Shown here: in pieces, positions 14,191-59,934 of the stretch
Layout of the letters: every line of letters begins with the position of its first letter
Numbering within the stretch: the first letter of the stretch is position 1
NCBI GenBank assembly: GCA_963965975.1
Contig: OZ014411.1
Span: forward strand, 23,171,249-23,235,248
DNA length: 64,000 bases
From: Xestospongia bergquistia
Taxonomy: Eukaryota; Porifera; Demospongiae; Haplosclerida; Petrosiidae
Direction: 5' to 3'
Position numbers and translations under genes: made by a program
Notes under the pieces: generated by a model
Database searches by the model: none
Seen by the model: only the letters and a program-made list of their open reading frames with translations
Told to the model about the DNA's origin: nothing

Positions 14191-14201
14191 ATGAAATATG
14201 T

Positions 14202-15279
14202 TCATTTAACAAAAATCTCAAAAGAAGCTATTAGAATGTCTTCATTATCTGTTCCCTCATCAGCACAAATACGCATCTCCAAAGCTTCAGTAGTTGATGA
14301 TGTGAGAACTTTATGGAACCAAGGTAGACCAGAAGCATTACAACAATCTTGTTCAAGAGTTCCGCATCCATCTCCATCCCACAATGGATCACTAGTGTAG
14401 AATTTCGTTGATATACTTGAATCAGAACAACCAGACTCACAGAAGTAGTCATTACCAACAAATGAAGGTACAGTTTGAGGACTACCAGAAGAACATGGAC
14501 AGTTATGTGGAGAAGGAACATTATCAAACAGTCCAGCAGCAAATGTCCAGATATGTTTACGAGGACATGAACCATATGTTAAACTAATACCATCAACATA
14601 ATAACTGTCAATTGTATGTCCTGCTTGGTGATAAAAAGCATTTGGACTGGCATATTGGTAACCAATAACTTTACCACATAATTCGTTATACCCTTTACTA
14701 GGAGGAGAGAAATAAACCTGAGCCAGACATCCACCACTAGTACCAGAAGGTCTACCACAAGCTCTTACACAATTAGAAACATACAACCTAAACCCAGGAG
14801 GACACTGGTGAGTTGGATCAGACATATTGAGGTAAGCAATCCTAGTCCAAGGTCCTCCAATCTTACATAACTCCTCCATATGACAATAGACAGTAGTTAT
14901 GTCTCCATTACTAGTAGCTATGGTATAGTAACCTGATGGACTATGAGGCCAATAATATTTAATATCTGCACAAGACCCAGGAATATATGAAGGAGGAGGT
15001 TGTCGACAGTGAGACTCAATCTTCTAGATAATCTTTTAACACAGACCGTGTACCATTGTTCACAGAAATAGAAGTCTTGTCATCATTAGCTAGAGACAAA
15101 AGGAGTTTGTCAATCTTGTCATTGAGAGCTTTACAACTTTTGTTATCAGCAGATGTTGTTAACTGAGAGTTACTACAAGAAGCAGTAAACTTAAACTCTT
15201 GAGCATCAACAATGATGCTACTGATAAAGATCAGCATTAGAAAAAAGGAGAATTCCATACTTAGAGAATTGAAATACAC
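14202..15279 (-). pseudogene. Secreted Cys-rich (fibrinogen-related-like) protein, copy A; single frameshift
   Basis: This belongs to a secreted single-exon family common in sponges and cnidarians. It starts at 15279 with a hydrophobic leader (LMLIFISSIIVDAQEF) and a short helical stalk. After SCADIKYYWPHSPSGYY and VYCHMEELC comes a long Cys-rich domain with GGPWTRIAYLNMSDPTHQC, CGKVIGYQY, IDSYYVDGISLTYG, GNDYFCESGC and DPLWDGDGCG, ending in MRICADEG...FEIFVK at 14202. The N-terminal part resembles the opening of fibrinogen-related domains; I know no reliable family name. Next to copies C and E it lacks the 8 bases tgtgctag near 15024, so the leader frame stops at 15016 before reaching the intact 225-residue domain frame. 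It is therefore one lesion from intact. A polymorphism or assembly error at this site could restore it. Confidence 0.75.
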
Positions 15280-16195
15280 TTGTTTAGTTTTAAAGTGATA
15301 AATAAATTATCAAATCAGTAATTACAAAGTGCCTCATCATTGTGTCGTGAGTGCCATATCAACTAACATTTGAATAGACATACAGTGTGCTATTGTTATT
15401 AATTAAATTTTTGTTGTAGGTTTGCACAATCATACATGACATGGCATAATTGGCATAATAAATGTTTGTCAGTTTATTTAATATTTGTTATGCAATAGTA
15501 ACCTTTTGAACACAATGATGAAGCTTTTCATGTGCCTCCCTTACTAAATAAATACTAGTGCTTAGGAGAAGAACAAATTTTAAATGAAATAACAGAACAA
15601 AAAAACTCTGTACTTAGAGTTACTCTTTATTTGTTTTAAGCATTTGTCAGCAAATAAAGCATTTGCTGGCAAAAATTGCAGTGCATAAAACCTCTGTGTT
15701 AATCACTATCATGTGAGTCCACTACATATGAAAAAATACATTTGCAAACATTTGTGCAAAAGAAATATGCAACCAAAATAAAATAATTGTGTAAATTATT
15801 GGACATTTATATTTTAAACATTGGAAAACGTGTTCAACTTAGAGCTAAATAATGCAACATGATTGATAAAAACAAGAGTTACATTGACAGTACATTTTAA
15901 TAGACATTTCACAGTATTCAAATAAAACAATTTTAATAATTCACAAACCTTTTTTAGCTGAGGCATAAGTAGTGAGGTGTCCTTATGAGTATCATCACAG
16001 AGACATTTGTGTTTATACTAATAATACTGTTACTCAATACATGTACTGGTGATACTTGTATCAAATGAGCACTTGCTATCTGCTGTTAATAATGAAGTAA
16101 TTTTGGTAATTAATTTAATTATATATACAAAATAGAAACGGCAGTATAATGTTTTAACAGCATTCATACCAATATAAAACAAGAAAACAAAACAT
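15280..16195. other. AT-rich spacer
   Basis: No gene recognised; it lies between copies A and B of the secreted Cys-rich array. No array or clear inverted repeat was seen. Confidence 0.4.
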
Positions 16196-16199
16196 CATT

Positions 16200-16760
16200 T
16201 CAAGTTATTCACAATCTCATAAAAAGGTATTGAAATATCTACATCAACCAATGTTAGTACCCTAACACAAATGCATATTTCTAATGCCATATAAAATAGT
16301 TGATGATGTGACAACTTTCATTCCAAAGTGCATTATAAGTACTATAATTTTGCTTGTTTTGACAAAAGTGATCCATTATAGGAGATTATATAGAGTGCTT
16401 AGAATCATATTAAAAAAAATAGTGACCTGTGAAGTATGAGGTCAATGATCTTTAATGTCATCTGCACATGACCCAGGAATATTTGAAGGAGGAGGTTGTT
16501 GAGAAAGAGATAGACTCGATCTTCTGTGCTAGTAAATAATCTTTAGCACTGATTGTGTAGTATTGCTGCTACAGAGAGATTACTTAGTTTTGGCTAATGA
16601 AGTAAGCAGTTCATCAATCTTGGTTTTGAGGTCTTGACAACTCTTGTTGACAGTAGATATTGTTAACCAATAGTTGCTACCACAAGATGCACTAAACGTA
16701 AGCTCAAAAAAAGAAGCTGAAGATAATAGCCAGCAGTAGATAAATAGAAAGCTCCATACA
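16200..16760 (-). pseudogene. Secreted Cys-rich family, copy B (two remnants)
   Basis: Positions 16438-16757 match the leader, stalk and SCAD segment of the neighbouring copies (plus-strand landmarks tgacccaggaatatttgaag and cttctgtgctagtaaataat). Positions about 16200-16395 match their C-terminal end (acacaaatgcatatttctaa). The Cys-rich core between them is deleted. No frame survives. Confidence 0.7.
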
Positions 16761-17106
16761 GATGTTTTCTTAAAGTATTTGCTATAAGTGTAGTGACTTA
16801 ATGAGTTTATTTTCTGTACAAGAGAGTTATTTATCAGGTAAACATAAGAAGTGTAATTATCATATTTGAATTAAACCACATTATGGATGTCTATTCACTC
16901 TATAATAATTTTAGTGAATAAAACATTATGATGTCTGTCAGTGTACTTTGCTGTCCTTTGACCAGTGTGGAATATTTTATAGCATTTGAAGATGATTTTG
17001 AAGACCGAGTTCTTAAACAAATTAAAACCATAAAAAAGGCTTAATTGCAGCAACTTTATTTACTACTTTTATTACATTTATTTCATACACTTCAAACTAA
17101 AAATGC

Positions 17107-18190
17107 TTATTTAACATAAATCTCATAAAAAGCTATTGGAATATCTTCTGAATCATTATCATTAGCTCCATCTTCAGCACAAATACGTATCTCCAAACCC
17201 TCAGTAGATGATGATGTCAAAATTCTATGAAACCAAAGTAGATCAGAAGCATTACAACAATCTTGTTCAAGTAATCTACATCCATCTCCATCCCACAATG
17301 GATCACTAGTGTAGATTTTCTGTAATATACTTGGGTCAGAACAACCAGATTCACAAAAGTAGTCATTACCAACAAATGAAGGTGCAGTCTGAGGACTGCC
17401 AGAGGAACATGGAGAATTGGCATTAGAAGCAACACTATCATTATAACCAGAAGCAAATGTCCAGATATGTATACAAAGATATGTACCATATGTTAGACTA
17501 ATACCGTCAACATAATAACTGTCAATTGTATGTCCTGATTATTGAGCGAAAGCATCTGTACTGTAATATTGGTAACCAATAACTTTACCACATATTTCTT
17601 TATGCCCTTTACTAGGAGGAGAGAAATAAATCTGAGTCTGACATCCACCAGTAGTGCCATAAGGTCTACCACAAGCTCTTACACAAGTATTGTTATACAA
17701 CCTAAACCCAGGAGGATAATGGTGAGTTGGATCAGACATATTAAGGTAAGCAATCCTAGTCCAAGGTCCTCCACTCTTACATAACTTCTCCATATGACAT
17801 AGACAGTAGTTGAGTCTCCATTAGTGGTAGCTATGATATAGTAACCTGATGGACTATGAGGACAATGATTTTTAACATCTGCACAAGAGCCAGGAATATA
17901 ATTATAAGAAGGAGGAGGTCGTTGAAAGAGAGACTCAATCTTCTGTGCTAGTAGACAATCTTGTACACTAATCATGAAGAATTGTTTACAGAGATAGAAG
18001 ATTGGTTTTCCTTGATTAAAGAGGTAAGTAGTTTGTCCATCTTGTCATTGAGAGCTTGATAACTCTTATTATCAGTAGACGCTGTTAACTGAGAGTTACT
18101 ACAAGAAGCAGCAACTTAAACTCTTGAGCATCAACAACAAAGCTACCAATGAAAATTGTCAAGACTAGTAGATGAATGGAAATAGACATA
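17107..18190 (-). pseudogene. Secreted Cys-rich family, copy C
   Basis: Full-length relative of copy A with a leader starting MSISIHLLVLTIFIG at 18190 and an end at IAFYEIYVK (17107). Three breaks are visible against copies A and E: a 1-nt loss just after the leader (about 18113), a 1-nt loss that turns the TVYCHMEE segment out of frame (about 17798), and an in-frame TAA after DAFAQ (about 17539). It still has most landmark cysteines and DPLWDGDGC. Its three breaks make it more decayed than copy A. Confidence 0.8.
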
Positions 18191-18739
18191 ACTGCCAGTA
18201 TTGTGTTCTTTGTTGGTTCTGTTCTAAAGTTGTTATAGCCCAATCAATATCAAGCTAAGACAATGAACAAGGACAATATAGAGCCTCATAGTTATGACAA
18301 AGGAGGGGAAAGCTGTACAAAGAGTCCATAAATGATGTTTGTGTTCCTACCACATACTAAAATAACAGAATATCAATTTTATAAGACAATTATAGCAGTG
18401 AATTGTCACCAAGTGTATGAAGTATATATTAATAAACTACACCATTGACCATATGTTTAGACTATAGTTTATATATTTATATAGTTTATACGTTTATATA
18501 TTTTACAACATACTTATGTACACAATTACTCCATTTCTCTATTAAGAAGACAAGGGTTAAGTAAAATGTTATTTTGACATATACTAAGTTAGAAAGAACA
18601 AGACAAGAATTTTTATTGAAGTTAAGTTTAACTCCTAAGCTATGACTAAACATTAATATATGTCACTCATAAACAAACATCTTCACTTAACAACAACTGT
18701 TAAGATCACTATATATTATCATAAAGATACATTGATAAT

Positions 18740-19110
18740 ATGAGAGCTTTATAAAACCAAGGTAGACCAGAAGCATTACAACAATCTTTGTTCAAGGGAT
18801 CTACATCCATCTCCATCCCACAATGGATCACTAGTTTAATTCTGCACATGACCCACAATATCCAAAAAATGAGATCATTAAGAGAGAGACTCAGTCCTTG
18901 TGCTAGCAGACAAACTTTGAACACAGATAAAGATGGCTTGTCATCCTTAGCTAGAAAGAAAAGCAAATTATTAAACTTGTTATTAAGAGCTTGACAACTT
19001 CATCATCAGTAGATGTTATCAACATATGTTACAGTAAACCCAAACTATTTAGGTTCAATAGAAAAGGTGATGAATAGGTTTGCTAGAAATAGACAATCAG
19101 AGTTCCACAC
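18740..19110 (-). pseudogene. Secreted Cys-rich family, copy D (internal deletion)
   Basis: The stalk segment (about 18840-19050) is joined directly to the C-terminal SDPLWDGD / CCNASGLPWF segment (18740-18835), removing the whole central domain. The fusion point lies at the gcacatgac / actagtttaat boundary near 18840. Frames are broken. Confidence 0.72.
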
Positions 19111-19600
19111 TAAAGTGTTATAATGAACTTGATTGTCTTTTAATCAATGATTAGTTGATCATTCACTTAATGGCAACGAAGCTAGACAGGTCAATAAGCA
19201 AATTATAGTAATTCCTTTCTATGACCACAACAAGGTTTTTTTATAGCTATAGTGAAATTAATACTAATACTATAAAGTTCACTACAAGCATAGTGACAAC
19301 AGTGTATTGATAACCAAAAAATTCATAAATTGTATATAACTAAACTACGTCATCGAACATCTGTTTGGACTTTATATAGCATACATATACATACAATTAC
19401 TTAACAAAACATGTACTGTGATATTATATTTGAAATACACTTGTAAACGCAAGAGCACCCAAATTTTAATATTTAAGTTCAAATATGAATTATACATAAA
19501 AAGTTGGGAAACACTGGACAAAAAATAATTACTGATATAAAGCTTCACTCTGTACACTATGATTAAGTGTGAAAATATATTGTAATAAATCATTCAGCAC

Positions 19601-20590
19601 TCATACAGTAAAAACATTCACATAAAACACAATTGGAATATGTTCATTATTAGTAACCTCATTAGCACAAATACGCATCTCCAAAGCCTCAGTAGTTGAT
19701 GATGCGAGAACTTTATAAAACCAAGGTAGACCAGAAGAATTACAACAATCTTGTTCAAGATTTCCACATCCATCTCCATCCCACAATGGATCACTAGTGT
19801 AGAGCTTCTGTGATACGGTTGAATCAGAACCAGATTCACAGAAGTAGTCATTACCAAGGTACAGTTTGAGGACTACCAGAATTAAGAACATGGACAATTG
19901 CCGCCAGAGACAGTATTATCTAACAAGCCAGCAGCAAATGTTCAGATATGTTTATGAGGAGATGAGCCATATGTTAAAATAACACCATCAATATAATAAG
20001 TGTCAATTGTACGTTCTGCTTGGTGATAAAAAGCATCAGTGGACCAGTATTGGTAACCAATAACTTTAACACATATTTCCTTATTGCCTTTACTAGGAGG
20101 AGAGAAATAAACTTGAGCCTGACATCGCCAGAAGGTCTACCACAAGCTCTTACACTATTAGACGCATACAACCTAAACCCAGGAGGACAATGGTGAGTTG
20201 GATCAGACGTATTGACGTAAGCAATCCTAGTCCAAGATCCTCCACTCTTACATAACTCCTCCATATGACAATAGACAGTAGTTGTTTCTCCATTACTGGT
20301 AGCTATGATATAGTAACCTGATGGACTATGAGGCCAATGATCTTTAATATTTGCACATGACCCAGGAATGTATGAAGGTGGAGGTCATCGAGAGAGAGAC
20401 TCAATCTTCTGTGCTAGTAGATAATCTTTTATCACAGATTGTGTACAATTGCTCACAGATATAGAAGATGTAGATAGAGACAGAAGCAGTTTGTCAAATT
20501 TGTCATTAATAAATTGACAACTCTTGTTATCGGTAGATGTTGTTAACTGAGAGTTACCAGTAAATTTAAACTCTTGAGAACAAAGGTCCT
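19601..20590 (-). pseudogene. Secreted Cys-rich family, copy E
   Basis: Copy E retains the stalk, VYC...MEELCKSGG, the central domain and the C-terminus. It has lost the signal-peptide start (homology stops at about 20590 where the leader should begin). It also has a deletion of about 11 nt near 20129 that shifts frame, a TGA replacing a conserved Trp codon in the HIWTFAAG motif (about 19947), and a further deletion near 19860. It cannot encode a secreted product as it stands. Confidence 0.78.
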
Positions 20591-35948: not shown

Positions 35949-38024
35949 ATGGCTGAAGCACAATCAGGTAAGTGCCTTTACAATAAAATAACAAACTATA
36001 CTGTCCATCTATAAGCTTTGATAATGTCTTGTGCAATTGTTTATGATATGACACGCGTATTAATTATAATATATCTTTTAGATGACAAGTCAAAGGCTTT
36101 AACTACTAATAACATTATTCGACTTCTTCAACGTAACAACTTCAGATTCAGTAAATATTGGAGAGGTGTAGCCAGAGACCTTAATGTATCTCTTGAAGAA
36201 AGAGCAGAACACCAGCTCTCGGCACTTCATCTTGATGCTGACTTTTCGTACTATTTAGAAGAAATTATTGATCATTGGCTAAGAAACAGTGATGAACCAT
36301 CATGGGAGAAGTTAATTGAAGTGATTGCTAAGTTTGAGAAGAATACTGCTAGGAACATGAAATCTTATTTAGGAATTGCAGATGTATTTAAAGGTACATA
36401 TTTTCTATAGTATTTGATTTGCATTAAAACTAAATTTGGATTTGCTAGAAACTATACTTGGGAAGCAACTGATAACAATATTGTCATATTATCTTTAAAT
36501 ACAGGTATATATCATTCTATGTCAGTTGACAGTGATCCTCGATGTGAACAAGTCTCCAGCAGCACTTTCTCATCTACCACTCCTGCTTCTGTGAAGTTAA
36601 CATCTGACGAGACCACACCAATTTCTTCTTCTTCAATGACAACAGCTGCATCTATCACAGCAGTACCTACTGCTATGATGCCCACTGTCACTCCAATTTC
36701 ATTAAGTATAAATACAGAAGCAATACCAGCTACAAAGCAAAGTTGTGATGACAGTAAGTATGTACAGCAAATGTCAAACAATGATGTCAATGCCTTTGGA
36801 AATTGTTCCATTTATAATTATAGTCAGGACAATCATGAGTACAATAATTATTATGGATACAATATGCAATGTTGTAAGCAAGCCCAAGGCCATTGGCTCA
36901 AGAGCTCCTTAGAATCGCTATGAAAATCGATTGGTTGATTGACCAATCCAATGTTATGTTACATATAATACATGACAAGTCATGTTGAGATAATAGCCAT
37001 CTTCTATATACATGTAGTGTATTTCCTTTTTGTGTTTGTACTTTAGTAACAAGGAAGGGTAGGGCACCAGTTGAGTAGTTGTCAACTTTTGGTTACACTA
37101 TTAGTTATGTCTGGCAGTTGTGGTATAATAGTAATTAAAGTACAGTATTGTTTACTACTTTTCTGCATCTCATTATGTAACAAAAATGACAATGGATTGG
37201 TTAACTCAACCAATTCATTTTACACTGATATTGCTTTCAGCCTTCACATAATGATCAGCTATATATCATGTTATTGGGTACCAGTATAGGTACTTCTACA
37301 TTTTATTGTCTGAGATAGACTATTGAAAGTAAAAATGTGTTATATAATCTAGTTTACACTAGTCATTTCACTATGAAAACACTACTCAATACTATCATTA
37401 TTTAAACATAACAATAGGACAACTCATTGCACACATTGTATAAATTTTCATTTTTTTATTAACACAGATCCTAAACTAGTAGATCTCTTTAAGTCAATGA
37501 CAATAGAGGATGATCAGCAAATTGAGATAAATTGCAAAGTTTTTAATGCTGATACTAATGAATTAATTCAATCCACTAGAGATCCACTTACAAGAGACAT
37601 CAAAATAGCACGTCGCCGACCACCTCGTGTTCAAGAATTTTCCTCTGATTCAGTGAAAATTGGCACAAGCATTCGTCTCGAAATTACATCTGACAGTGAT
37701 TGCTATCTCTATGTATTAAATGTAGGCACGTCTGGCAAGACAAGTTTGTTACTACCAAATGAGTACGAGCGTGACCATTACTTTCATGCCAATCAAACTT
37801 ACTATCTTCCTGGTGAAGATTTTGGATTTGAAATAGAGGGTCCATCTGGAAAAGAAACTATTCAAGTTTTGGCCTTTTCACAAAAACAATCTGACTTGGA
37901 TAAATTGTATGGTGAAGTTATTCATGAAAAGGAACTGTATCGTGATATTACTGTTCGACGTAAAGCCAAAGTTCCAGTGGATAAAAAGGGATATGCTCAA
38001 GTACAGTTTGATGTAATCGTATAA
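35949..38024 (+). CDS. Death domain-DUF4384 protein, copy 1
   Basis: Four exons, 35949-35967, 36082-36393, 36505-36753 and 37468-38024, all joined in phase 1, give 378 residues. Exon 2 is a Death domain (about 15-100; RFSKYWRGVARDLNVSLEER, SWEKLIEVIAKF). Exon 3 is a Ser/Thr-rich linker of about 80 residues. Exon 4 is a DUF4384 domain (about 235-330; GTSIRLEITSDSDCYLYVLN, LLLPNEY, YYLPGEDFGFEIEGPSGKE). DUF4384 is mostly bacterial and often follows caspase-like peptidase domains. The Death domain implies recruitment by Death-fold adaptors in the cytosol. The stop at 38024 is 283 bp before the start of the TPR-CHAT gene on the same strand. Function is inferred from domain company only. Confidence 0.87.
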
Positions 38025-38307
38025 TGGGAAACACCTTTATATAATTCTTAACAAAAAATCTTCTTATAAAATTTATCATCATCATCAACTTTAAAATATT
38101 CTTAACATTATGAGCAGCTCTACACAGTATACTTTTTTTCTATTATAGTCACATGATCAGTTACCTTATTTTGATCTAATGCAATCTTATTTTTAAAATA
38201 TATCAGAGCTTTTTATATTGATAAAGAAGCTATTGCTATAAATTACGTGTATAATAAACTATGTTGTATATAACAACCCCTCCTCTTTCCTTTAATTTGT
38301 ATTCAAA

Positions 38308-41300
38308 ATGGAGTACCTTATCGAGGAACACAAGATTGTTAGTAATTCTCACCTTGAAGAAATTAGAAAAGAACTGGACAGTTTGAGAAATAAAGGAGAA
38401 AAAATCGTTGATTCAATGTCTGATATTTCTTCAAAGAAATTGGGTATGTTCCTTTTTGATAGTTTGGATCATTTTTTGAGTCAATGTTATATGATGGATC
38501 TCGTTTTAGATACCATGTTAACAAGAATCAAAGAATTAAAGGTTACAAATGTATTCGCAGCAAAGTATCTATGTCAACGGTTGTTAGATGCTTCAGACAC
38601 TGCTGTTATACAAGTAAATACACTAGATCAACTAAATCTTGTGTACTGATACATATCTATTGTTTATTTAATAGATATGTGCTCAATATGGGTGGATATT
38701 GGATGAGTGCACTGTATTTGGATGAGTCCAATAGTTGAGCCTAATTCATATAAAACAATCAAATATCAAGCTATATATTTGACAGTCAGCCATTTAATGA
38801 GAGGTTTATTGTATAGTACCATTCATAGATATGGTAGAGTATTAAGAAAGAGGGGATTACAAGCTAAGCAGGGGTATATTGTACTTTTTAATGTTTTTAT
38901 ACCCAAATTATTTTACATTTATGTAATATAATAACAAGAAGATAGATTTTTTTAGCATCCCCTAAACAGCTGACATGCTGACAATTTAAATAACTTATCG
39001 ACTCCCGTATAGAAAAGTGTGCTTATAGAAAAATGCATAATATTATGTAGTAAATAAGTCTATTTCAACTAGAAACTCACTCTCACTTATGAGCTTTGTG
39101 ACATCCTCTTTTTGGTTGGTCCTTTCTCTGAGGTAGCAACAAACCTAGAAGAATTGTTGACAAAAGATATTGATAAAGGTAATATGTTAATTGTATATGC
39201 ATACGGATGTACATTAATTAGAGTTTCAAGAGTCAAATAATATTGTCTGTAATGGTAGATACCATCATCTCTATTTCCTAATTGTTAGACCTTAATCATG
39301 ATAGCACCCATTTCAAAAATAGTGGCAGTTACATGACCTGTTATTTAGCTAATACATGTTTATACATAATATGTGTACAGAGAATACTATTTGGTTACTA
39401 ATGTATTATGAAATAAATGGTTATGTAGGTACATAAATGGAAAGAATAGCCTTTTATGGATTATAGTTGAACATTGTTTTATACTTTATGATTGAAGTAC
39501 TGTAAATTGTAATCATGTTTGTTTCTTTATTAATAGATATGCAATACAAAGTGTGCCTTTTACTTGGACATACCTATCGAGTGATTGGAGAAATTGATAA
39601 AGCCAAGAAGTACTACAAAAAAGCTGAAACTATAGGGAAAGATGACTGTATGGAAGATTGTGTTACGTTGGCAGTTATTTATCAGCAGATGTGTGTGTAT
39701 GCCACAGGAAACAACAACGAACCAATTGAGAAGTTGAATCCTCTTGTTTCAAACAATGCACTTAGTGTGTCTACTAGAGGAATATTGCATCAAGTATTAG
39801 GCAATGTGTATAGATCTGCTGCAGACTGGCATCGTTCAAAGTACCACTTTAATGAATCTATTTGTCTAGCAAAGGAAGAAAATGATCAACACAAAGTAAT
39901 GGAGCGGGTAGCAGAGCTAGGTAGAGTTTATCGTTCATCAGGTTGCCACAGTGAAGCATTGACGCGTCAAGAAGCATTTTTAAAATTTTCTGTTTGTCAT
40001 GGCTACCTCTATAGTATAGCAGCTGCTTGTGGTTATATAGGCTTCACTTACTATTCAATGGGTAAAAGCCATTATAAAGATGCTGTGAAGTTTCTTTATT
40101 GTAGGCTTGAACTTAGTAGAAATGAATTAAATGATGTAGCTGGATATAGATGGTGCTTAAACAACCTTGGTAAAGTGTATCTTGGTTTAAATGAGCATAA
40201 GTTATGTATGAAACTCTTTACAGAATCTGCTGAAATAGCTAAAGACATTGGTAACATGCTTGGCTTGGGTACAGCATATGGTAACTTAGGAACAGCCTGC
40301 AGGGCTGTTGGTAGGCATGATGAAGCCATAAAGTACCACAAACTTTATTTGCATGACATAGCAGAGAAAACTTCAGATACTGGAGGTGTTTCTATAATGC
40401 AAAATGAGTTGATACTGGATTATCTTTTCATCTACAAAGAGAAAAAAGAAAGGGCTGAAAAAGAGAGTATGCTTGAAACTGCCAGATGGTATGCATGTCA
40501 AGCTTTGAGGACAGGTTTAGAGGTTAGGTCAAGGCTTAGTAAAGATGATGATCTCCTAAAAATTGGTAATTTTGAGAAGAATCAAGCTAGAACATATGCT
40601 TTGCTACAGTTTATTCTTGTTGAACAAGGAGAATATAAAGCTGCACTTCTGGTTTCTGAGCTTGGTAGAGCACGAGCCTTGGCAGATTTAGTTGAGGAAA
40701 AATTGAAGGCTTTTAGTCAATTTCTTAGTGATATCATTGATGTTTTCAACCAAGATGGTAGCTTTAATTGTAAGCAAATGTCATCAGCAATGGTACAGCT
40801 AAACTCACTACTTCAATCATTGAAGTCTCATTTGCTAATCTATTCAATAGTCGATAATCCATTGAATGGTAAGGAGACTTTGCTTTATACGTGGTATGTA
40901 CATCCAGTTTCTGATTGTCTTACTGATGAAGTAAGAATATATTTCAATCAAGTGTCATTAAGTCAAAAGAATGGAGACAAAGCAGAATGTTTAGCATTTA
41001 ATGAAGAGTATGTTACTAGTCTTATGCATGAAGTGCGAAGTACAAGTTCTCAATTGATAAAGACAGCTGAATCTGGCATAGATACTGTAACATCTAGAGA
41101 TATCATTCGTAGAAAGATGGCTGTAGTAGCTAGTGAAAAATCACCTCAGCCTGAAAAGAGGAAAGACAAACTTGAAGAACTATATTCACTGTTAATTGAG
41201 CCCATGTCAAAGCATATGCTTTCTAAAGATGCTGATGTCACAAGACTCATCATAATTCCTCAAGGTTTTCTTTTTAGTGTGCCATTTCCTGCTCTCAAGG

Positions 41301-42058
41301 GACCTGGGCATTACTTGATTGAAAAATTTATTATAAGTCTATCACCCTCTATCTATCTTCTTCAATTAGCTTTGAAAAAGGAGAAATTAAAGTTTGGTTC
41401 TGACGTTCGAGCTGACCTATCTGTTCTAGCTGTTGGCAACCCTAAGATGCCACTTGATGAAATAGAACAGTTACCTGGTGCTGAAAACGAAGCCAAATCC
41501 ATTATTGACATTGTTTCTGGTAAGTTGTTATGTGGTGTCGAAGCCACTAAGGCAGATGTTGTTAATAGTCTGCCTCATTTCTCAGTAATACACTTAGCCA
41601 CTCATGCAATATTAGAAGACTCGCTGTCTGATCACCTAGCCAGCTCTGAGTTGATGAGCTCTAAGAGTGATGGAGACTATGGCATTAAAGGTGCTATAGT
41701 ATTGGCAAAATCTAATTCTTCCTGTAGTGGGGTGCTTACAAGCTCTGAAATTAAAGAACTTAATCTTGACTGTGAATTGTTTGTTCTCAGTTGCTGCAAT
41801 ACTGCTCGAGGTAAAGTGACACAGGATGGCATACTTGGGTTGTCAAGATCGCTGATGTGTGCTGGTGCTACTAATATGATTGTTACACTTTGGCCCATTC
41901 ATGACTCTTCAACAGCATTGTTAATGAAGAACTTTTACACTGACTACAAGCTAAGTCGGGATGCTCCTGCTGCTCTGCGTCATAGTATGCTTTCTTTGAT
42001 AAAGAAACAGTACAAAGTTGAGCGTTGGGCTGCCTTTTGTAATTTAGGAATTCAATAA
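38308..42058 (+). CDS. TPR-CHAT caspase-fold peptidase
   Basis: Exons 38308-38613, 39073-39178 and 39537-42058 join (phases 0 and 1) into 977 residues. The N-terminal 135 residues are helical. TPR-type repeats follow from about 140 to 480 (LLLGHTYRVIGEIDKAKKYY, LNNLGKVYLGLNEHKL, YGNLGTACRAVGRHDEAIKY). The C-terminal CHAT domain (about 690-970) has IIIPQGFLFSVPFPAL, VIHLATHA with His about 827, ELFVLSCCNTARGK with Cys about 891, and GLSRSLMCAGATNMIVTLWP. These are the two catalytic landmarks of CHAT, a relative of caspases and separase, so the site looks intact. In bacteria TPR-CHAT proteins act as effector peptidases in defence. Animal CHAT proteins are little studied. The start is the first ATG of the upstream frame, just after a cttcctctt-rich leader. 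Confidence 0.87.
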
Positions 42059-43265: not shown

Positions 43266-43900
43266 TGTTTACTATCAAAATATGCATATATGCACTTATT
43301 TACTGTTCTTTGTCCTTTATATATGTATTCAATTAAGTAAAATGACAAATAAATGTTGTGTTATTTAAATCATCAAAACTACACAAAGAGTAATGATATT
43401 AAAATAAAATTAAAATTTGACATAATTGTTTTCTTTATTGTGCATTCAATGTATAATATTGTAGTTATGTTTTTAATAAGTATACATAGAGATTCTGTTA
43501 TTAGAACTACCCAAAACTAACTTAATTGGAGAAATCATTAATTTGGTAATTATGTTAGACATGAGATAGATATATGTTCAGTACAATATCTACTCAAAGA
43601 CGTAACACATGATGCATTGAGCTGAACAACAAAGAGAATAACAAAATAAGAATATATAATGGAAACTAAAATACTTATATATTAAAGCTTTATAAATCAC
43701 AATATACACATAACATGACTAAAAGTAACAATATGTAATGTGGACATTATAAATAAGATCTCTTAACATATACTGCACAAAACATGGTCATCTAGGTGCT
43801 ACTATTGTTTCTGCATTTCTTGTCATGTGATGGAAGACATACATGAGTGATGTTGGGAATCTCTTTAAGGTCTAACAAGTTAGTTGCATGAATGACTTTC
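43266..43900. repeat. Non-coding repeat shared with 51.3-52.4 kb and 60.5-61.5 kb
   Basis: Stretches such as cacttatttact.ttctttgtcc and gagattctgttatt.gaact match 51350-52430. Part of it matches 61280-61445. The other two loci carry about 600 bp (51487-52080; 60548-61270) that is absent here, which points to a deletion at this locus. Confidence 0.7.
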
Positions 43901-43919
43901 TACTAATACCAGTTATACA

Positions 43920-45240
43920 GAAGACTATTTTGTAATGCGTTCAGTTTGTGATGATCTACCTGACTTCAAGTCAATAAACCAATCTGCTGAGAACTTGTTT
44001 AGATATGGACATGTGCAGGTCATAAACCTTTGTAAGGCAGGCAAACATATATAGATCACTGCTAAATGTCTACCCAAGATGATGAAAGACAGAGTTTACT
44101 TTTAAGGATGGTTCTTGCATCAGAAGGGAATTAATGAAATTCTATATACAGTATGTGGCTGTCTGGTGATCTGCCATGATCAAATTTCCTGGCTTTAGAA
44201 GGTCTAAAACTCCACTATGTCTAGTGAGTTCTTTGTCCAAATTGAGCAAGGGAATAAAGATGACACAAATATAATCACGCCATCAAGTGAGATACCAATA
44301 AGATCTTTAAATGTGTTGTAATTCTAATAGTTAGAAAAATGTCATCTGCTGTAGCTTAGAAAGGTGAAGCTGGTCAATATAAATTTCAGTGGCATCCATG
44401 CAGCATATTACTCTTGTAGTCGGGTATTTGCTCTTAAACTCCTTTGACATGATTCCTTTTATCAGTGCTCTTAGAGGCCATAATGATACTTCTTTCAACT
44501 TCAAAAACAGGAAGTTAATTCAAGCAAGGATAATTCTAGAACAAGTTGTTTGGGATATACCAAAATGGTAAGCAAGGTCCTGTTCCAGTATTCCTAGCCA
44601 AAGATGAATTAATGTAAGAAAAAAGTTCTTCTTGTGAAGGTAATTATGTTCATGGTTGACAATGGTTACTTGTATTTTCACCAAGACTGTCCTCTCTGTG
44701 TATGCAAGAATAGCTCAAAAATATGGCTGGTCCTAAAAATCGATAAAAAGCTTCAACTGCTCCATAAGTAAGAAACGTTAACCCCATAAAGAATGCCAAC
44801 TTACAGTCACTTTCAATTGTTTAATCTTGACATTTCATCATTCATTTTCTTTAATTTTGCTCCAGAAATTAGGTCTTCTCTGTGGCAGAAGCCAACTCCA
44901 CCTTAATCTCATCAAAGTTCTCTTCTGTTTGTGTACAAACATCAACAACATGAACATTGTCAATAACAGTTGAGCTTTCAGTAGATGAAGAGGGGTTGCT
45001 TGGGAACTGTATGGCTAATACTTGGCTTCTAGATGGCTTTCTCTCATTAATTGGAGTTCGAGAGGTAAACAGGACTGGTAGATATAGAGAAGGAACTTCG
45101 TCAGGTTTCAATTTTCGTCCAGAAGCATTAACAAAGTGTTTACTGCAGACTCGTGTATTAGTGTTGATAGGCAAATCTGTCCTCCCAATAGCGTGGACCC
45201 ATTGCTTTATAAGAGATTTCTTACTTTAATGGCAGTCGAA
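43920..45240 (-). pseudogene. THAP plus DDE_Tnp_4-type DNA transposase, copy 1
   Basis: The 5' part (45240-44869) encodes a THAP zinc-finger tail: WVHAIGRTDLPINTNTRVC, SKHF, then KLKPDEVPSLYLP. Further on are a DDE_Tnp_4-like segment with DATEIYID (about 44390) and a lineage-typical LLEQDLAY block (about 44570). The N-terminal C2 of the THAP finger is not in frame, and the catalytic region has stops and gaps. The THAP-plus-DDE_Tnp_4 layout is known from Harbinger/ISL2EU-type animal transposons; I cannot place it finer. Confidence 0.72.
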
Positions 45241-46663: not shown

Positions 46664-48887
46664 ATGTCTGCAGGAATATTGGAAGTACCTGACAAGCGAA
46701 AATTACTCGAAATACTAGCACCAATTCAAGACAAATTTCAAGAAGTTGGGTTAGCCTTAGGCGTGCCTGATTATGTTTTAAACAAAACAAGCACCAAATC
46801 AGATATACTAAAACTAAATGACGTGTTAGATAGCTGGCTTGAAATTAAGAGCAATAGTGCTACGTGGGAGATTTTTCTTGCTGCAATAGAGGGACCCATT
46901 GTTAAGAATCAAATTATAGGGGATAAAATACGTGAACATCTTGGTCTTAAAGACGCCACAAGTGAAGGTAGGTAACATAACATATTTTATTAACATCTTT
47001 CTGTCCACTTTGGGAAGTGTTATGAATGTAATTGTTTAATATGCATATATTGTAATAACCTGTATTTTCTGTTTTTTAACCTCGCTGCGCATGGGCGCAT
47101 AGCGAGGGTTACTGTAGTCTGTCAGTGTGTGTGTCTGTTACCCGGGCAAATGGCTTTGAACTACTTTAACTCGGCAAACAAGGCACTGGTAGCCACCAAA
47201 CTATAGTGGAGGGTAGTAAAACTTCTGTATTTCTTAACAATACTGCCAAAAGGAGCGTCAAACGAACAAAAAGCTTTAAAAGTCTGAAAAACCTTTGAAA
47301 AGAAGCACAGCTTTCAGTGACGACTCAAAAATTCAATAAAAACCTCCTGCATAGAGCTTATGACATTTTCCAACTTTTAAAAGTGAGGATTTTTGCCAAA
47401 ATACTTTTTTCGAAAGTTATGACAGTTTTACTAACTTTTGGCAGTTATCTTTGTCGATACATTGAGCGCGAACTAAAAATACTAGCACCAAGCTGTCATT
47501 GGAGAATCACTAACTTTTACTAAGAAGTTGGAAAGTATTGAACCTTTGTCAATTTGAGTGCAAAAGTACCCAGTAGACACACTAAACGGCAAAGCTTTTT
47601 TCCCTTTGACTGAAGAGAAATGCTGAGTCATCAATAATCATCTTGCGCATCACGTGAGATATCTCTTGTCTGTATTCTGTGGTATAGGTCACTTAAGGAG
47701 GCTAAAAAGAATAAAGAAAGTCTCTAGATATGAGGTTAAGCACTTTAGTGCATTTCATCTTCTATTGTAATTTTTAACATACTTTCATTGTTGTATATAT
47801 ATATTGTAATCTATTGTCACCACTCTAAGCTGTTTACATGCCATATATTTAGGTTGAAAAATATCTAGGAGTATAGCTATAGACGACAGAGTAGTAGTGT
47901 CTTGTTTATAATTATTACAAGAGCCAATTTATCTATAAGGCAACTTGACAAGCAGCCTTGGGTGAAGAATTTTGGGAGCTGAAGTATATTAGTAAAGTAG
48001 ACTATTGATTACTACTTTTCTGCATCTCATTATGTACTACTTGCAACAAAAATGACAATGGATTGGTTAAGTCAACCAATTCATTTTACAGTGATATTGC
48101 TTTCAGCCTTCACATAATGGTCAGCTATATATCATCTTATTGGGTTATCAGTATAGGTGCTTCTACATTTTATATAATGTTTGAGATAGACTATTGAAAG
48201 TAAAATTGTGTTATATACTCAAGTTACACTATTCATAATGACTATAAAAGCATTGTCATTATTTAAACATAGAAACAGGATAACTCATTGTGTACATTAA
48301 TTGTATAGATTTTCTTTTTTATTAACACAGATCCTAAACTAGTAGATCTTTTTAAATCAATGACGATAGAGGATGATCAACAAATTGAGATAAATTGCAA
48401 AGTTTTTAATGCTAATACTAATGAATTAATTCAATCCACTAGAAATCCACTTACAAGAGACACCAAAATAGCATGTCACCGACCACCTTGTGTTCAAGAA
48501 TTTTCCTCTGATTCAGTGAAAATTGGCACAAGTATTCGTCTTGAAATTACATCTGACAGTGATTGCTATCTCTATGTATTAAATGTAGGCACATCTGGCA
48601 AGACAAGTTTGTTACTACCAAATGAGTATGAGCGTGACCATTACTTTCATGCCAATCAAACTTACTATCTTCCTGGTGAAGATTTTGGATTTGAAATAGA
48701 GGGTCCATCTGGAAAAGAAACTATTCAAATTTTGGCCTTTTCACAAAAACAATCTGACTTGGATAAATTGTATGGTGAAGTTATTCATGAAAAGGAACTG
48801 TATCGTGATATTACTGTTCGACGTAAAGCCAAAGTTCCAGTGGATAAAAAGGGATATGCTCAAGTACAGTTTGATGTAATCGTATAA
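46664..48887 (+). CDS. Death domain-DUF4384 protein, copy 2 (different Death domain)
   Basis: Exons 46664-46967 and 48331-48887 join in phase 1 into 286 residues. Exon 1 is a Death-fold domain (LLEILAPIQDKFQEVGLALG, DVLDSWLEIKSNSATWEIF, IREHLGLKD) that is not an evident copy of the one at 36082. Exon 2 is a near-copy of the DUF4384 exon at 37468: in the final 175 codons only seven residues differ. The Ser/Thr-rich linker exon of copy 1 is absent. Homology to copy 1 begins inside the intron at about 48002 (37142 in copy 1), so the DUF4384 exon was spliced onto a different Death exon by duplication. Acceptor aatag precedes ATG directly, so an untranslated first exon is likely. No TPR-CHAT partner follows. 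Confidence 0.83.
47078..47720. mobile_element. GC-rich-ended dispersed repeat in intron
   Basis: It starts with the hairpin cctcgctgcgc/gcgcatagcgagg (47081-47108) followed by tctgtcagtgtgtgtgtctg, then unique sequence. It is abruptly less AT-rich than the intron around it and absent from the homologous intron of copy 1, so it is an insertion. Its right end is uncertain. Confidence 0.5.
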
Positions 48888-49139
48888 TGGCAAATACCTT
48901 TATTTAATTCTTAACAAAAAATCCTCTTATAAAATTTATCATCATCTTCAACTTTAATTAATATTATGAGCAGCTCTACACAGTATACTTTTTTTCTATA
49001 TATATAGCTCACATCATCAGTTACTTTATTTTGGTCTAATGCAATTTTATTTTTAGAAGATACTACAACTCTTTATATTAATAAAGAAGCTATTGCTGTA
49101 GAGTGCTTGCATATAAACTATGTTGTATATAACAACTCC

Positions 49140-49190
49140 ACCCCTTTCCTTTAACGTGTATTCAAAATAGAGTACCTTATTGAGGAAGAC
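49140..49190 (+). pseudogene. Truncated start of a TPR-CHAT copy
   Basis: The leader and first codons of the TPR-CHAT gene are duplicated here (aagag/gagtaccttattgagga against gagtaccttatcgagga at 38308). The start codon reads ATA where the intact gene has ATG, and homology ends by about 49190. Nothing of the TPR or CHAT coding region follows. Confidence 0.8.
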
Positions 49191-49460
49191 ACCCATTAGC
49201 CCAAGAAAGTTATCCAAATTGTTAACCCTTTCTTTTCAAATTTTTATTGCATTTTCTTACGCGAGCAAAAGCTGCATAATGTGAATTGATTATCTTATGC
49301 TTGTCTTGAAAGAACAAAAGAAAATGTTATAAAGTTAGATAGATTATGGAGAGAGCAGACATCTTTTATATCTGTCCCTTTAACTTCTATTGTGGATGTT
49401 ATTACTTTTAACAATACAAGAAAGACCAATGAGTATATTTTAGAATACTCATAATTTAAA

Positions 49461-50046
49461 GTCTGAGTGACAAATCAAATTGTTACCGATATGAGATATC
49501 TCTGAGTGAGAAATGAAATTGTTACCCATATGGGATATCTCTGAGTGAGAAATCAAATTGTTACCCATATGGAATATCTCTGAGTGAGAAATCAAATTGT
49601 TACCCATATGGAATATCTCTGAGTGAGAAATCAAATTGTTACCGATATGAGATATCTCTGAGTGAGAAATGAAATTGTTACCCATATGGGATATCTCTGA
49701 GTGAGAAATCAAATTGTTACCCATATGGAATATCTCTGAGTGAGAAATCAAATTGTTACTGATATGAGATATCTCTGAGTGAGAAATGAAATTGTTACCC
49801 ATATGGGATATCTCTGAGTGAGAAATCAAATTGTTACCCATATGGGATATCTCTGAGTGAGAAATCAAATTGTTACCAATATGGGATTTCTATGAGTGAG
49901 AATTAATTGTTACCCATATAGAATTTCTCTGAGTACTAGTAAGAATTAAAATTGTTATCCATTGGAAATTTTTTCAAGTTAAGAAATCAAATTGTTACCG
50001 ATATAGGATTTTTCTAAGTGAGATATCAAATTCATTTATGTGGGAT
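49461..50046. repeat. 39-bp satellite, about 15 units
   Basis: The unit is gtgagaaatcaaattgttac followed by ccatatgggatatctctga, with cgatatgaga variants. Because 39 is a multiple of three, one minus frame stays open for 139 codons as a 13-residue repeat (ISHSEISHMGNNL). Units on the right decay into degenerate copies. It occupies the place where the CHAT gene body would be in the duplicate. Confidence 0.93.
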
Positions 50047-51350: not shown

Positions 51351-52430
51351 ACTATCAAAATATCCATATATGCACTTATTTACTATTCTTTGTCCTTTAT
51401 ACATGTATTCAATTAAGTAAAATGACAAATAAATGTTGCGTTATTTAAATCAAAACTACACAAGAAATAATGATATTAAAATGAAAAAGTAATAGAAGAA
51501 TCAACATGATATAACAAGCTTTCTTTAAATTATTTGGTCTTTTATCTGGACAGCCAATACTAATGATCGCAAACAAAATGAAGCAATTTTTACAATACAA
51601 TAACCAATCATATATATCTATACAAAAAAGTTCTTAAGAGTCCCCAACTATTAGAGGGCATATCTTCTAACTTAAATCTTACCAGTAAATCTCGTGCTCT
51701 GCAAACAAAAGAGTGAATACCACATCTAGGGCTCAATTTTTGTTTGCTATATTTGGTGATAAGGTCTCTAGTTAGTAAGCCAGAACAACAATAATCATCA
51801 TTAGAGTAGTTATTGATGACTCATTATTGATTGATTGTTGATACAAACTTTGTAGATGATTGTTGTTGTATTGTATATTAAATTACTTGGTTTAATTATT
51901 TGTGATCTTTAGGTTGACTGTTGAAACAAAATAAAGTCTATTATGTCCTTTATTAACTATATTACTTCTCTAATTAAGGAGCTTCTACACAGATGTATAC
52001 ACTGTTATAGTGTTCAATACATGCCCTAATAAGCAAATAGGTGATTAATTACAGGTAATTATTGGAAATTGTAATGTATCAAAATAAATTTAAATTTGAC
52101 GTAATTGTTTTCTTTATGTGTGCATTCAATGTATAATATTGTAGTTATGTTTTTTTTAATAAGTATACATAGAGATTCTGTTATTGGAACTACCCAAGAC
52201 TAATTTAATTGGAGAAAGCATTAATTTGGTAATTATGTTAGACATGAGATAGATATATGTTCAGTACAATATCTACTCAAAGATATAACACATGTTGAGC
52301 TGAACACCAAAGAGAATAACAAAATAAGAATAACGGAAACCAAAATACTTATTTATTAAGCTTTATAAATCACCATATATGTGTGACATGACTAAAAGTG
52401 ACATCATGTAATGTGCACATTATAAATAAG
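51350..52430. repeat. Non-coding repeat shared with 43.3 and 60.5 kb
   Basis: Same blocks as at 43266-43900, plus about 600 bp (51487-52080) that are shared only with 60548-61270. No coding content seen. Confidence 0.68.
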
Positions 52431-52439
52431 ATCTCTTCA

Positions 52440-53497
52440 AAGACTATTTTGTAATGCATTCACTTAGTGATGATCTACCTGCTGGTGACTTCAAGTCAAT
52501 AAACCAATCTGGTGAGAACTTGTTCAGATGTGGACATGTGCAGGTCATAAACCTTTGTAAGGCAGACAAACATATATACATCACTGTCAATGTCTACCCA
52601 AGATGAGGAAAGACGTCGACAGAGTTTACTTTTAAAGATGGCTCTTGTATCTGGAGGGAATGATATTTTATATGCAGAATATGGCTGTCTGGCTATCTGC
52701 CATGACCAAATCTCCTGGCTCTAGAAGGTCTAAAATTCCACTACATCTAGCGAGCTCTTTGTCCAAATTGAGCAAGGGAATAAAGATGACAACGAGTATA
52801 ATCACACCATCAGGTGAGATACCAAGAAGACCTTTTAAATGTGTTGTAATTCTTGTAATTAGCAAATGTCATCAGCTGTAGCTCAGAAAGGTAAGGCTTG
52901 TCAACATAAATTTCAGTGGCATCCAGTATTTACTCTTGTAGTTGGGTATTTGCTCTTAAACGATGTTTCCTTTTTATCAGTGCTCTTAGAGGCCATAATG
53001 ATACTTCTTTCAACTTCAAAACAGGAAGTTAATCCAAGCAAGGATGGTTGGGATATACCAAAACGATAAGCAAGGTCCTGTTCCAGTAGTCCTAGACAAA
53101 GATGAATTAATGTAAGAAAAAATCCTCTTGTGAGGTAATGCATGCTCATGGCTGACAATGCTTACTTGAATTTTCACCAAGACTGTCCTCCTTGTGTTTA
53201 CAAGAATAGTTCAAAGCATCAATGGCTGGTCTTAAAAATCGATAAAAAGCTTCAAGTGCTCCATAATTAGGAAACCTTGTAAAGAATGCCAACTTACAAT
53301 TGTCATACTTCATATTGTTTAATCTCAACATTTCATTATTCATTTTTTAAAATTTTGCTCCAGAAATAAGATCTTCTCTCTAGCTGAAACCAACTCCATA
53401 CTAATCTCATGAAAGTTTTCTCCTGTTTATGTACAAACATCAACAACATGAGCATTGTCAATAACAGTTGAGCTGCAGTAGGTGAAGAGGGGTCGCT
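52440..53497 (-). pseudogene. THAP/DDE_Tnp_4-type transposase, copy 2 (truncated)
   Basis: Parallel to 43925-45000, with LGLLEQDLAYRFGISQPSLL (about 53060), DATEIYVDKPYL (about 52920), GISPDGVIILV and ELARCSGILDLLEPGDLVMA (52670-52830). The DDE_Tnp_4 core is better kept than in copy 1, but frames change at least twice, and the THAP end is cut off at about 53497 where the duplicated block stops. Confidence 0.75.
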
Positions 53498-57938: not shown

Positions 57939-59934
57939 ATGAAGCTACTTCTGTTTTCAGTGGTGTTCTACTTAGCAGCTACTGTCAAAGCGCAGAACTG
58001 TACAGCTCTAGCTAGTGCTGGTAACTGTGACTTCTATACTCAGTGTCTAGAGGCAAGATTTCAATGTGGGAGAAATGGATATCCTATTGCCTATGGTGAC
58101 AGGTATTGTCGTCTATTCACAAACAAGCAAAGCTGTTTCACATCTGAAGTAAGTATTCATTGCTCTTTTAGAATAAAAGATTTATTAATTTTGTAAATAT
58201 AGGGTCAATCTTGGGTCAATAATACACAGATTTGTCTCATGCAAACCATCCTGAACAGCAATGTCTATAGCTCAACTGGAACATGCAGTGAATTACAGAC
58301 ATTTGCTTTTGATAGTCATTCATCCTGTTATACTGACAATGGATTTTGTAATGATATTCTTTTGAGAAACACCAGCTTGAACTGTCTTGCCTTTGAAGTT
58401 TTTTCTAGCAATGATTTCTGGAATAGGCAGGGAATTCAACAGGTTTGAGATAATGGTTGTCAATTCTATATTGATCATGTATTTAGATTCTCAATGCAGC
58501 TATAACATGTACCAGGCAGATTGCTGATAGTTTCTTGTCCTTTGTGAATGATTGGATATCACATGCTGTACAATTAGTTACACGTCAACTCCTTCAGACT
58601 TTGAAAGATCTTCTTGGAGGTAAACAATTATATTTTTATCATCTAATTTTCATATCCACTGTGCATGCATATAGGTTGCAATGCTGGTCTTGACATTGTC
58701 TTTGTATTGGATGCTTCAGGAAGTATTGGTCAATCAAACTTTGTAATAATGAGGGACTTTGTTAAAAGTATTATTTCCAACTTTGAAATAGGAGCTGACA
58801 AAACACGTGTTGGAGTTATACGATATGCAAGTTCAGCTTCTATTGTAATTTCACTTGGTTCAGTTAATAATGCTTTACTGCTTAATACTTCAATTGATAA
58901 TATTGCTTTCACTAGTGGTGGAACAGCCACACATTTAGCCTTGAATCTTTTAGAAGATGCCTTTAGCAATGCTCGTGTAAATGAAGGAGTCCCTCGAATA
59001 GCTATTGTTTTTACTGATGGTGTATCTAATTCACCATCTTCAACTGTTCAAGCTGCACGGGCAATTCATGCAGCTAATATTGTAGTGTATTCATTTGGTA
59101 TTGGAAGTGGTGTCAACAACAATGAACTAAATGCTATAGCTTCTAGTTCTAACAATGTCTTTTTTGTCTCAAACTTCTCTCCAAGTCAATTTGCTGCACA
59201 ACTACTCCCACTACAAACAACAGCTTGTACAAGTAAGCGTATACATTAAAGTTCTAATCAGAATATTGTATTTTATCTCAAATAGCTCCAGCCATTTCTT
59301 CTATTAATATTAGTATAACAACAACACTTGATATGAGTGCATTCCGTTTGCTACAATATGCCTTTCCTGATGAAGGTCTCACAATAAAATTTGTTATTGT
59401 ATCTGGACAATTGTTAATTTATGGATCGTTTTCAGTACAAAACCCTACTTCGTTGACAGCTGATTTCTCAATCCAAGGTACTACTACTACTGGTATAGAT
59501 TTCTTTATAAGTCCTGAGTTACGTCAGTCAGTATTTGATTCACAAAGTAATCGTCGACGTCGTCAAACTGGTTCACCATCAAATACAACAGGTAATGTTT
59601 TTCTATCAATTGGAGGTCTTCAAGCTAACAACACATTCTTATTGAGCACAACACTTGGAGATACAACTAGTCCAGGTAAATATGAAGACTAAATATATGA
59701 TCTATGTACTGTGATATATTAACAATTTGGTAGCTGTATATATAATACAAAAATGTTGTCATCTATTATAACTTATTTCTGATATGTTTTTGTACTATTT
59801 TGTTCCTTACAGCTTGTCCAGGTACAGATGAATGTAATGAAAGGATAGCAAAATTAGGATGCCATGTGTTGGCTGATGATAATGTGACTCCACTACCACG
59901 ATTTTGTGAAACTATCAATTATCGTACATTTTAA
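57939..59934 (+). CDS. Secreted Cys-rich protein with VWA domain
   Basis: Six exons (57939-58148, 58203-58442, 58487-58619, 58675-59232, 59286-59675, 59813-59934) join with consistent phases into 550 residues. The signal peptide is MKLLLFSVVFYLAATVKAQ. A Cys-rich module follows (CDFYTQCLEARFQCGRNGYP, GQSWVNNTQICLMQ; about 20-150), then a helical stretch. The VWA domain (about 197-380) has a complete metal-ion site: DASGS, TSGGTAT and FTDG. The C-terminal part carries a RRRR site (about 475) and ends in a Cys-containing tail. VWA domains bind ligands through a metal ion, so an extracellular adhesion or recognition role is likely. I do not recognise the N-terminal module. There is no transmembrane segment. 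Start chosen at the Met directly before the leader. Confidence 0.86.

Follow-up and report, generated by a model that had tools for sequence, protein, structure and literature searches.

The window analyzed here is a 64-kb stretch of a 28-Mb contig (OZ014411.1) of the sponge Xestospongia bergquistia, the genome of which comprises 146 Mb in 21 contigs. It holds two adjacent genes on the plus strand: the first (gene 1) joins a Death-like domain to a DUF4384 domain, and the second carries tetratricopeptide repeats (TPRs) followed by a CHAT peptidase domain (Table 1). Both can be spliced, as read from their splice sites and frames. A first-pass annotation of this DNA had reported the adjacency, and the coordinates, the shared strand, the 283-bp spacer, and the ATHA and LSCCNT motifs are all present in the sequence.

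Table 1. Features of the Death-DUF4384/TPR-CHAT locus, in window coordinates
Feature	Position	Strand	Basis or remark
Gene 1 exon 1, start codon, phase 1 end	35949..35967	+	GTAAGT donor, in phase
Gene 1 exon 2, Death-like domain	36082..36393	+	hhalign to same-genome Pfam-Death exons
Gene 1 exon 3, Ser/Thr-rich linker	36505..36753	+	phase 1 to phase 1
Gene 1 exon 4, DUF4384 (domain ~37653-37874) and stop	37468..38024	+	Pfam; whole-genome search
Spacer between gene 1 and TPR-CHAT gene	38025..38307	+	283 bp, sequence
TPR-CHAT exon 1, helical region, family unassigned	38308..38613	+	predicted model, profile scans
TPR-CHAT exon 2, 46 bases, predicted, phase 0 to 1	39133..39178	+	splice sites, inference
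TPR-CHAT exon 3, TPRs and CHAT (CHAT ~41165-42046)	39537..42058	+	Pfam
Presumed catalytic His codon (HLATHA)	41603..41605	+	aligned column His in 34/35 rows
Presumed catalytic Cys codon (LSCCNT, second Cys)	41795..41797	+	aligned column Cys in 34/35 rows
Gene 2 Death-like exon, other Death subfamily	46664..46967	+	hhalign 97.5%; relatives genome-wide
Segmental copy of 37112-38332	47973..49191	+	self-BLAST 89.7%
Gene 2 DUF4384 exon, duplicate of 37468-38024	48331..48887	+	Pfam E 7.6e-21; in-frame join to 46664-46967

Gene 1 consists of four exons that join in one frame with no internal stop, all introns being phase 1, and encodes 378 amino acids plus the stop codon that ends at 38024. From the start, the predicted product runs through the Death-like domain and a Ser/Thr-rich linker to DUF4384. 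The three exons of the TPR-CHAT gene are likewise in phase across joins read from splice sites, and the last exon alone contains about 840 codons of TPRs and CHAT. The first-pass annotation had named a DUF4384 profile search of 37468-38024 and a CHAT profile search of the C-terminus as the checks on its domain assignments, and both came out positive: DUF4384 (PF14326) is matched by Pfam at E = 6.1e-21 (74.7 bits, cut-off 27) and CHAT (PF12770) at E = 3.5e-53 (181 bits, cut-off 24), over model positions 2-287 of 289. Ahead of CHAT in the same exon, TPR_12 is matched at E = 3e-16. The His and Cys presumed to be the catalytic residues of the CHAT family both lie in their aligned columns, which is consistent with the claimed peptidase; we regard proteolysis as putative.

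A whole-genome profile search found two DUF4384 matches in the 146 Mb, both inside the window, and CHAT matches at 13 loci. With uniform placing, the chance of finding a CHAT locus 5 kb or less from one DUF4384 locus is ~0.001, a value that describes a single event and was computed post hoc, after the sighting.

The second DUF4384 match belongs to another Death-DUF4384 gene (gene 2, 46664-48887), which goes beyond the first-pass annotation and arose by exon duplication. Its DUF4384 scores 74.4 bits in Pfam (cut-off 27) and lies within a segmental copy of the gene 1 locus that holds the intron end, the DUF4384 exon, the spacer, and the first ~25 bases of the TPR-CHAT gene, the ATG of which reads ATA in the copy. 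The rest of the CHAT gene is absent from the copied segment, and gene 2 has no CHAT neighbor within the window. Because the copy ends ~25 bases into the TPR-CHAT gene and has lost its ATG, the gene 1 locus probably represents the older arrangement. The two DUF4384 exons are 97.3% identical, compared with 90.3% for the intron and 89.5% for the spacer (Fisher p = 2e-7), with nonsynonymous and synonymous divergences (dN and dS) of 0.016 and 0.070. This pattern is as expected for a coding exon under selection, or for later gene conversion.

The surroundings of the copied segment are repetitive. Self-BLAST reveals a tandem array of ~39-bp units directly behind it (49462-50032), and a repeated element flanks it on both sides (43390-45000 and 52071-53497) and might have taken part in the duplication. 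A minus-strand open reading frame (ORF) at 52913-53161 encodes a transposase helix-turn-helix (HTH) domain (PF13613).

Comparison with other exons of the same genome suggests that both adaptor-like genes carry Death-like domains. When the gene 1 exon, aligned with 10 relatives, was compared by hhalign with 12 Death exons of this genome that Pfam recognizes, the match probability was 96.9% (E = 2e-10); for the gene 2 exon it was 97.5% against the same set (E = 7e-12). The gene 1 exon has 94 matches in the genome at E ≤ 1, itself included, and two of these (C7:2506385 and C7:2358986) overlap Pfam Death hits. Four of its relatives were run against Pfam: two (L050 and L058) match Death at E = 3e-4 and 1e-3, just below the cut-off, and two (L048 and L049) give no Death match. 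Among solved structures, PIDD and FADD chains are matched at E = 0.065-0.94, interspersed with unrelated chains that in some cases have better scores. Death-like exons are abundant here, with 983 candidates in the genome and 807 of the gene 2 type, 150 scored in each case.

The neighborhoods of these relatives point to the kind of gene from which such exons could be drawn. One long neighboring ORF was examined in each of nine of the 22 fetched relatives, with splice joins unchecked. In three of the nine it is a NACHT ORF downstream on the same strand (L050 and L058 of the gene 1 type, and L060, a gene 2-type exon that is 58% identical and ~0.15 Mb distant), in one (L065) it is a downstream Roc ORF, and in the remaining five it has no match over the cut-off. 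Because some relatives precede NACHT, the Death domains of both window genes appear to be of kinds found in genes resembling NOD-like receptors (NLRs), which lends plausibility to the upstream sensor that the first-pass annotation had proposed. DEATH-NACHT-LRR receptors are known in sponges, as described in the available part of PMC12909245. The NLRs with N-terminal DEATH described there resemble the arrangement around some of our Death-exon relatives; they differ from the window genes, in which Death is tied to DUF4384.

Many other Death hits across the genome lie within single open frames of ~360-405 amino acids (L034, L036, L039, L041, and others), possibly a repeated intronless Death gene family. 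The only two that were run on Pfam, L034 and L017, show Death alone. L017 (378 amino acids) is situated ~6.4 kb upstream of another CHAT locus of this genome, L012, on the same strand (C1:6443486-6451313).

DUF4384 and CHAT are also linked in bacteria. Of 292 cyanobacterial genomes, 71 have a DUF4384 match, which exceeds the cut-off in 61. Among the best 77 rows of cyanobacterial relatives of the window CHAT (E ≤ 1.3e-27), seven rows from six genomes have DUF4384 within 3 kb, where 0.14 would be expected; all seven are on the same strand, two of them share one DUF4384, and three have the sponge order, with DUF4384 first. Starting instead from DUF4384, at least 14 of 52 places in 24 cyanobacterial genomes have CHAT within 5 kb, compared with 2.7 expected under uniform placing, in a nonrandom sample that was chosen for short DUF4384 ORFs and includes three genomes found with an HTH-type pair as query. 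G046 and plasmid L073 are apparently one replicon (both 247,167) and were counted once.

These bacterial neighborhoods take two main forms. In the first, a TPR-CHAT gene lies downstream of an HTH-like-DUF4384 gene, both on one strand, as at five loci (L073, L075, L085, L086, and L087) spanning Nostoc, Anabaena, Fischerella, and Desmonostoc; the HTH label is our own reading of the sequence, and Pfam shows only DUF4384 on L073. The CHAT frame of L087 is split into two pieces. The pair recurs in G195, G082, and G095; G129 has no CHAT within 6 kb after DUF4384, and at L076 of Nostoc edaphicum group II intron genes follow HTH-like-DUF4384 instead of CHAT. In the second form, long DUF4384 ORFs encode caspase-DUF4384 fusions, which was the case in all seven tested and in Calothrix L138, where a TPR-CHAT gene stands immediately before the fusion; at L112 a TPR ORF on the same strand comes after the fusion. 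On three plasmids, two from Rhizobium and one from Azospirillum, a DUF4384 gene sits immediately before a caspase gene. Across these neighborhoods, several bacteria pair DUF4384 with caspase-fold proteases, and cyanobacteria pair it with CHAT. The fusions bear out the earlier statement that DUF4384 sits behind caspases, which can now be sharpened: beyond caspase fusion, cyanobacterial DUF4384 genes often neighbor CHAT genes.

Each form resembles the sponge locus in different respects. The cyanobacterial caspase (C14)-DUF4384 genes paired with TPR-CHAT (L138; L100/L142 in G249; L102/L147 in G052; L122/L144 in G101; L112 in G233) have DUF4384 towards the C-terminus, with the TPR-CHAT gene nearby and in the same orientation. 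Four of their CHATs, those of L138, L142, L147, and L144, were compared with the sponge gene and rank among its nearest relatives seen here. They differ in having a caspase where the sponge has Death, and CHAT comes first in L138, G249, and G052 and second in G101 and G233. The Nostocales HTH-like-DUF4384/TPR-CHAT pairs share the order, strand, and short spacing of the sponge genes, and differ in the HTH-like N-terminus and in that their CHATs and DUF4384s each fall in clades apart from those of the sponge.

The Nostocales HTH-like-DUF4384 genes adjoin a divergent gene, annotated as Cas1 at L073, L075, and L076 and represented by a size-matched ORF at L085-L087. At L086, Pfam shows reverse transcriptase (RT) and Cas1 domains, hinting at a CRISPR-linked or RT-linked module.

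In sequence, the window CHAT is closer to cyanobacterial CHATs than to those of its own genome. It is 40.2-45.5% identical to the six nearest cyanobacterial TPR-CHATs (L083, L084, L131, L132, L133, and L138), the remaining cyanobacterial CHATs being more distant, and at most 27.2% identical to the 11 other CHATs of the sponge genome that were aligned (L011 was too partial). With the whole protein as query, blastp gives 328 bits for the best cyanobacterial match and 108 for the best paralogue, L004, in which many TPRs precede CHAT; in both identity and blastp, the window CHAT is thus nearer bacterial CHATs than the long-TPR CHATs of its own genome. Trees of 35 rows, and of 32 rows after removal of three long branches (own_L013, L137, and one L133 row), place it among cyanobacterial TPR-CHATs and apart from a seven-member clade of the sponge's own; own_L011 and both pieces of L087 were too partial to include. 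The approximately unbiased (AU) test rejects a tree in which the window CHAT and 10 other sponge CHATs form one clade (p = 0.0006). Transfer from bacteria is the likeliest origin of the window TPR-CHAT, and the donor looks cyanobacterial in a comparison that covered cyanobacterial genomes and plasmid records. For the locus as a whole, a bacterial origin of both DUF4384 and TPR-CHAT is likely, as judged from sequence, and their having entered together is the simplest option. No confirmed relatives of either were found in viral contigs.

We tentatively read the locus as a bacterial-type DUF4384/TPR-CHAT module in an animal chromosome, onto which an NLR-type Death domain has been spliced and which may feed NLR signals to CHAT. 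On this reading, DUF4384 and TPR-CHAT genes, often neighbors in cyanobacteria, would have entered the lineage, most simply together, and a Death-like exon of the kind found upstream of NACHT would have joined DUF4384 via phase 1 introns, with Death taking the place held in cyanobacteria by the caspase or HTH-like part. An activated Death-NACHT or similar sensor could then gather the Death-DUF4384 protein by Death-Death contact, a step that would follow from the nature of the Death family. DUF4384 may in turn dock on the TPRs of the TPR-CHAT protein, as suggested by the cyanobacterial gene linkage and by the N-terminal exon of the CHAT gene, in which no Death-like region was found. Clustering or allostery might switch on the Cys/His protease, the substrates of which would be cleaved in defense or cell death; we propose this step because CHAT proteases act with partners, as does Csx29 in Craspase (PMC9729208, available part). 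When the DUF4384 exon was later copied next to a different Death exon, a second adaptor gene would have arisen, and through the two adaptors a single protease could receive input from two kinds of sensor. A fuller version of this scheme, in which a bacterial two-gene CHAT-protease module was taken as a unit and its caspase or HTH-like part was swapped for Death domains of the NLR repertoire, yielding a caspase-independent route from NLR-like sensors to CHAT with two interchangeable Death-DUF4384 adaptors, strikes us as doubtful in its entirety.

The proposed route has partial counterparts elsewhere. In animals, Death adaptors such as FADD and PIDD signal to caspases. The sponge scheme would similarly set a Death adaptor upstream of a caspase-fold protease, with the difference that the effector is CHAT rather than C14 and that the coupling would be made by DUF4384. 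Csx29 of Craspase is likewise a TPR-CHAT protease with a partner protein, but that partner is an RNA-guided nuclease (available parts of PMC9729208 and PMC10028731), and the likeness drawn here is one of domain make-up and partnering. Among the papers available for searching, none joins Death domain, CHAT domain, and adaptor, and the three that join CHAT domain, sponge, and tetratricopeptide concern corals and fungi, judging by titles; the five that name DUF4384 concern bacterial topics, again by titles. In PADLOC, the DUF4384 protein had no match and the TPR-CHAT protein only a generic TPR one. Gasdermin gave no match in the sponge genome, in a search in which the control was silent too. Comparisons of the parts shared by bacterial and animal cell death (caspases, Death-like domains, and NACHT/STAND NTPases) usually take one domain at a time. 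At this locus, an animal seems to have retained a bacterial gene neighborhood and to have spliced an adaptor domain of its own onto the bacterial partner. Should the link prove functional, it would constitute an immune pathway made from a transferred effector module and native NLR parts, and the role of DUF4384, which has no assigned function and occurs with caspases and near CHAT, would become directly testable.

Several results weigh against the proposed link and its history, for which the evidence comes from one locus of one genome. The Pfam Death model (PF00531) gives no match at E ≤ 1 on either the gene 1 exon (36084-36392) or the gene 2 exon (46664-46972), and we accept gene 1 exon 2 as Death-like with that reservation; the Death domain claimed at first pass stands by its likeness to same-genome Death exons. 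A direct Death-Death link to the protease was also considered and rejected. Exon 1 of the TPR-CHAT gene matches only itself in the whole genome and nothing in Pfam or NCBIfam, and an AlphaFold2 single-sequence model of it (mean pLDDT 71) has three long helices and one short, unlike the six-helix Death bundle; hence, any contact with gene 1 is more likely to run via DUF4384. In cyanobacteria, 70 of the 77 nearest CHAT rows have no DUF4384 within 3 kb, and the order is the reverse of that in the sponge, with CHAT leading, in four of the seven linked rows and in six of seven close pairs among the matches listed. The HTH-DUF4384 pairs best match the sponge order, yet their CHATs share only 23.6-26.8% identity with the window CHAT. 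The CHAT comparison itself covered cyanobacterial genomes, plasmid records, and the CHATs of this one sponge.

The ancestry of the sponge DUF4384 adds to these difficulties. Its best match is a stand-alone Deinococcus protein (42 bits), compared with 12-25 bits for cyanobacterial HTH-type and 12-15 bits for the few caspase-DUF4384 rows. In a tree of 100 columns, built after removal of seven duplicate loci, it sits deep among the rest; grouping it with the HTH-DUF4384 clade is rejected (AU p = 0.0005), and grouping it with Deinococcus is rejected at the borderline (p = 0.047). A search of genome contigs for DUF4384, begun from the sponge sequence, gave no confirmed match. As to descent from one bacterial pair, CHAT points to the cyanobacterial type and DUF4384 is shut out of the HTH-DUF4384 clade. 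Because the sponge DUF4384 is not closest to CHAT-linked DUF4384, joint transfer is only the simplest option. The fold of DUF4384 was too weakly modeled to be of use here: a five-sequence model had a mean pLDDT of 60, and its top Foldseek matches were the beta-sandwiches PDE6D and UNC119, at E = 1.2e-3 and weaker with TM scores of ~0.3-0.4.

The alternative that survives best is that the two genes are real and work apart, Death-DUF4384 being a product of rampant Death-exon shuffling that happens to lie beside CHAT. Death fusions should arise easily in a genome in which Death-like exons are so common, and the second Death-DUF4384 gene has no CHAT neighbor in the window. Such incidental adjacency must however be reconciled with the scarcity of DUF4384 and CHAT matches in 146 Mb and with the linkage of the same two domains in sampled cyanobacteria, and we consider it unlikely, though a serious contender.

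Alternatively, the TPR-CHAT gene could be an old animal gene of the TTC28 type with a bacterial likeness, beside which a separately acquired DUF4384 landed. The AU test leaves room for this, since a clade of the window CHAT with the sponge's own L004, L006, and L009, which we infer to be TTC28-like, is unrejected (p = 0.42), a result that also counts against bacterial transfer of CHAT; the exclusion of the sponge DUF4384 from the HTH-DUF4384 clade would fit as well. According to the available part of PMC12314368, TPR-CHAT genes occur in many animals, mostly in one or two copies, and the animal TTC28/TPRBK and coral TPR-CHAT proteins treated there share the order of TPR then CHAT. The window gene is nearer cyanobacterial CHATs, in a comparison made with the sponge's own CHATs: its 40-45% identity to the nearest of them contrasts with at most 27% to the sponge's own, and L004 and L009 reach only 28.6-33.6% with the same cyanobacterial rows. 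We regard a TTC28-type origin as improbable.

Bacterial contamination or misassembly, which the bacterial type of the domains might bring to mind, is very hard to credit in view of the phase 1 introns that splice, a Death-like exon from a large family of the same genome, a DUF4384 duplicate with a diverged intron, and a 28-Mb contig in which the GC content of the window (27-43%) shows no step at either gene.

Elsewhere in the window, self-BLAST shows a tandem array at 7645-8505 with offsets of ~34 and 68 bp, and three ~1-kb copies that are 79-84% identical lie at 14186-20578, one of them containing a Cys-rich ORF of 225 amino acids with no Pfam match. A minus-strand ORF of 646 amino acids (4852-6792) has a weak Roc match below the cut-off, and an exon at 58647-59249 encodes a VWA domain (Pfam E = 5.5e-39).

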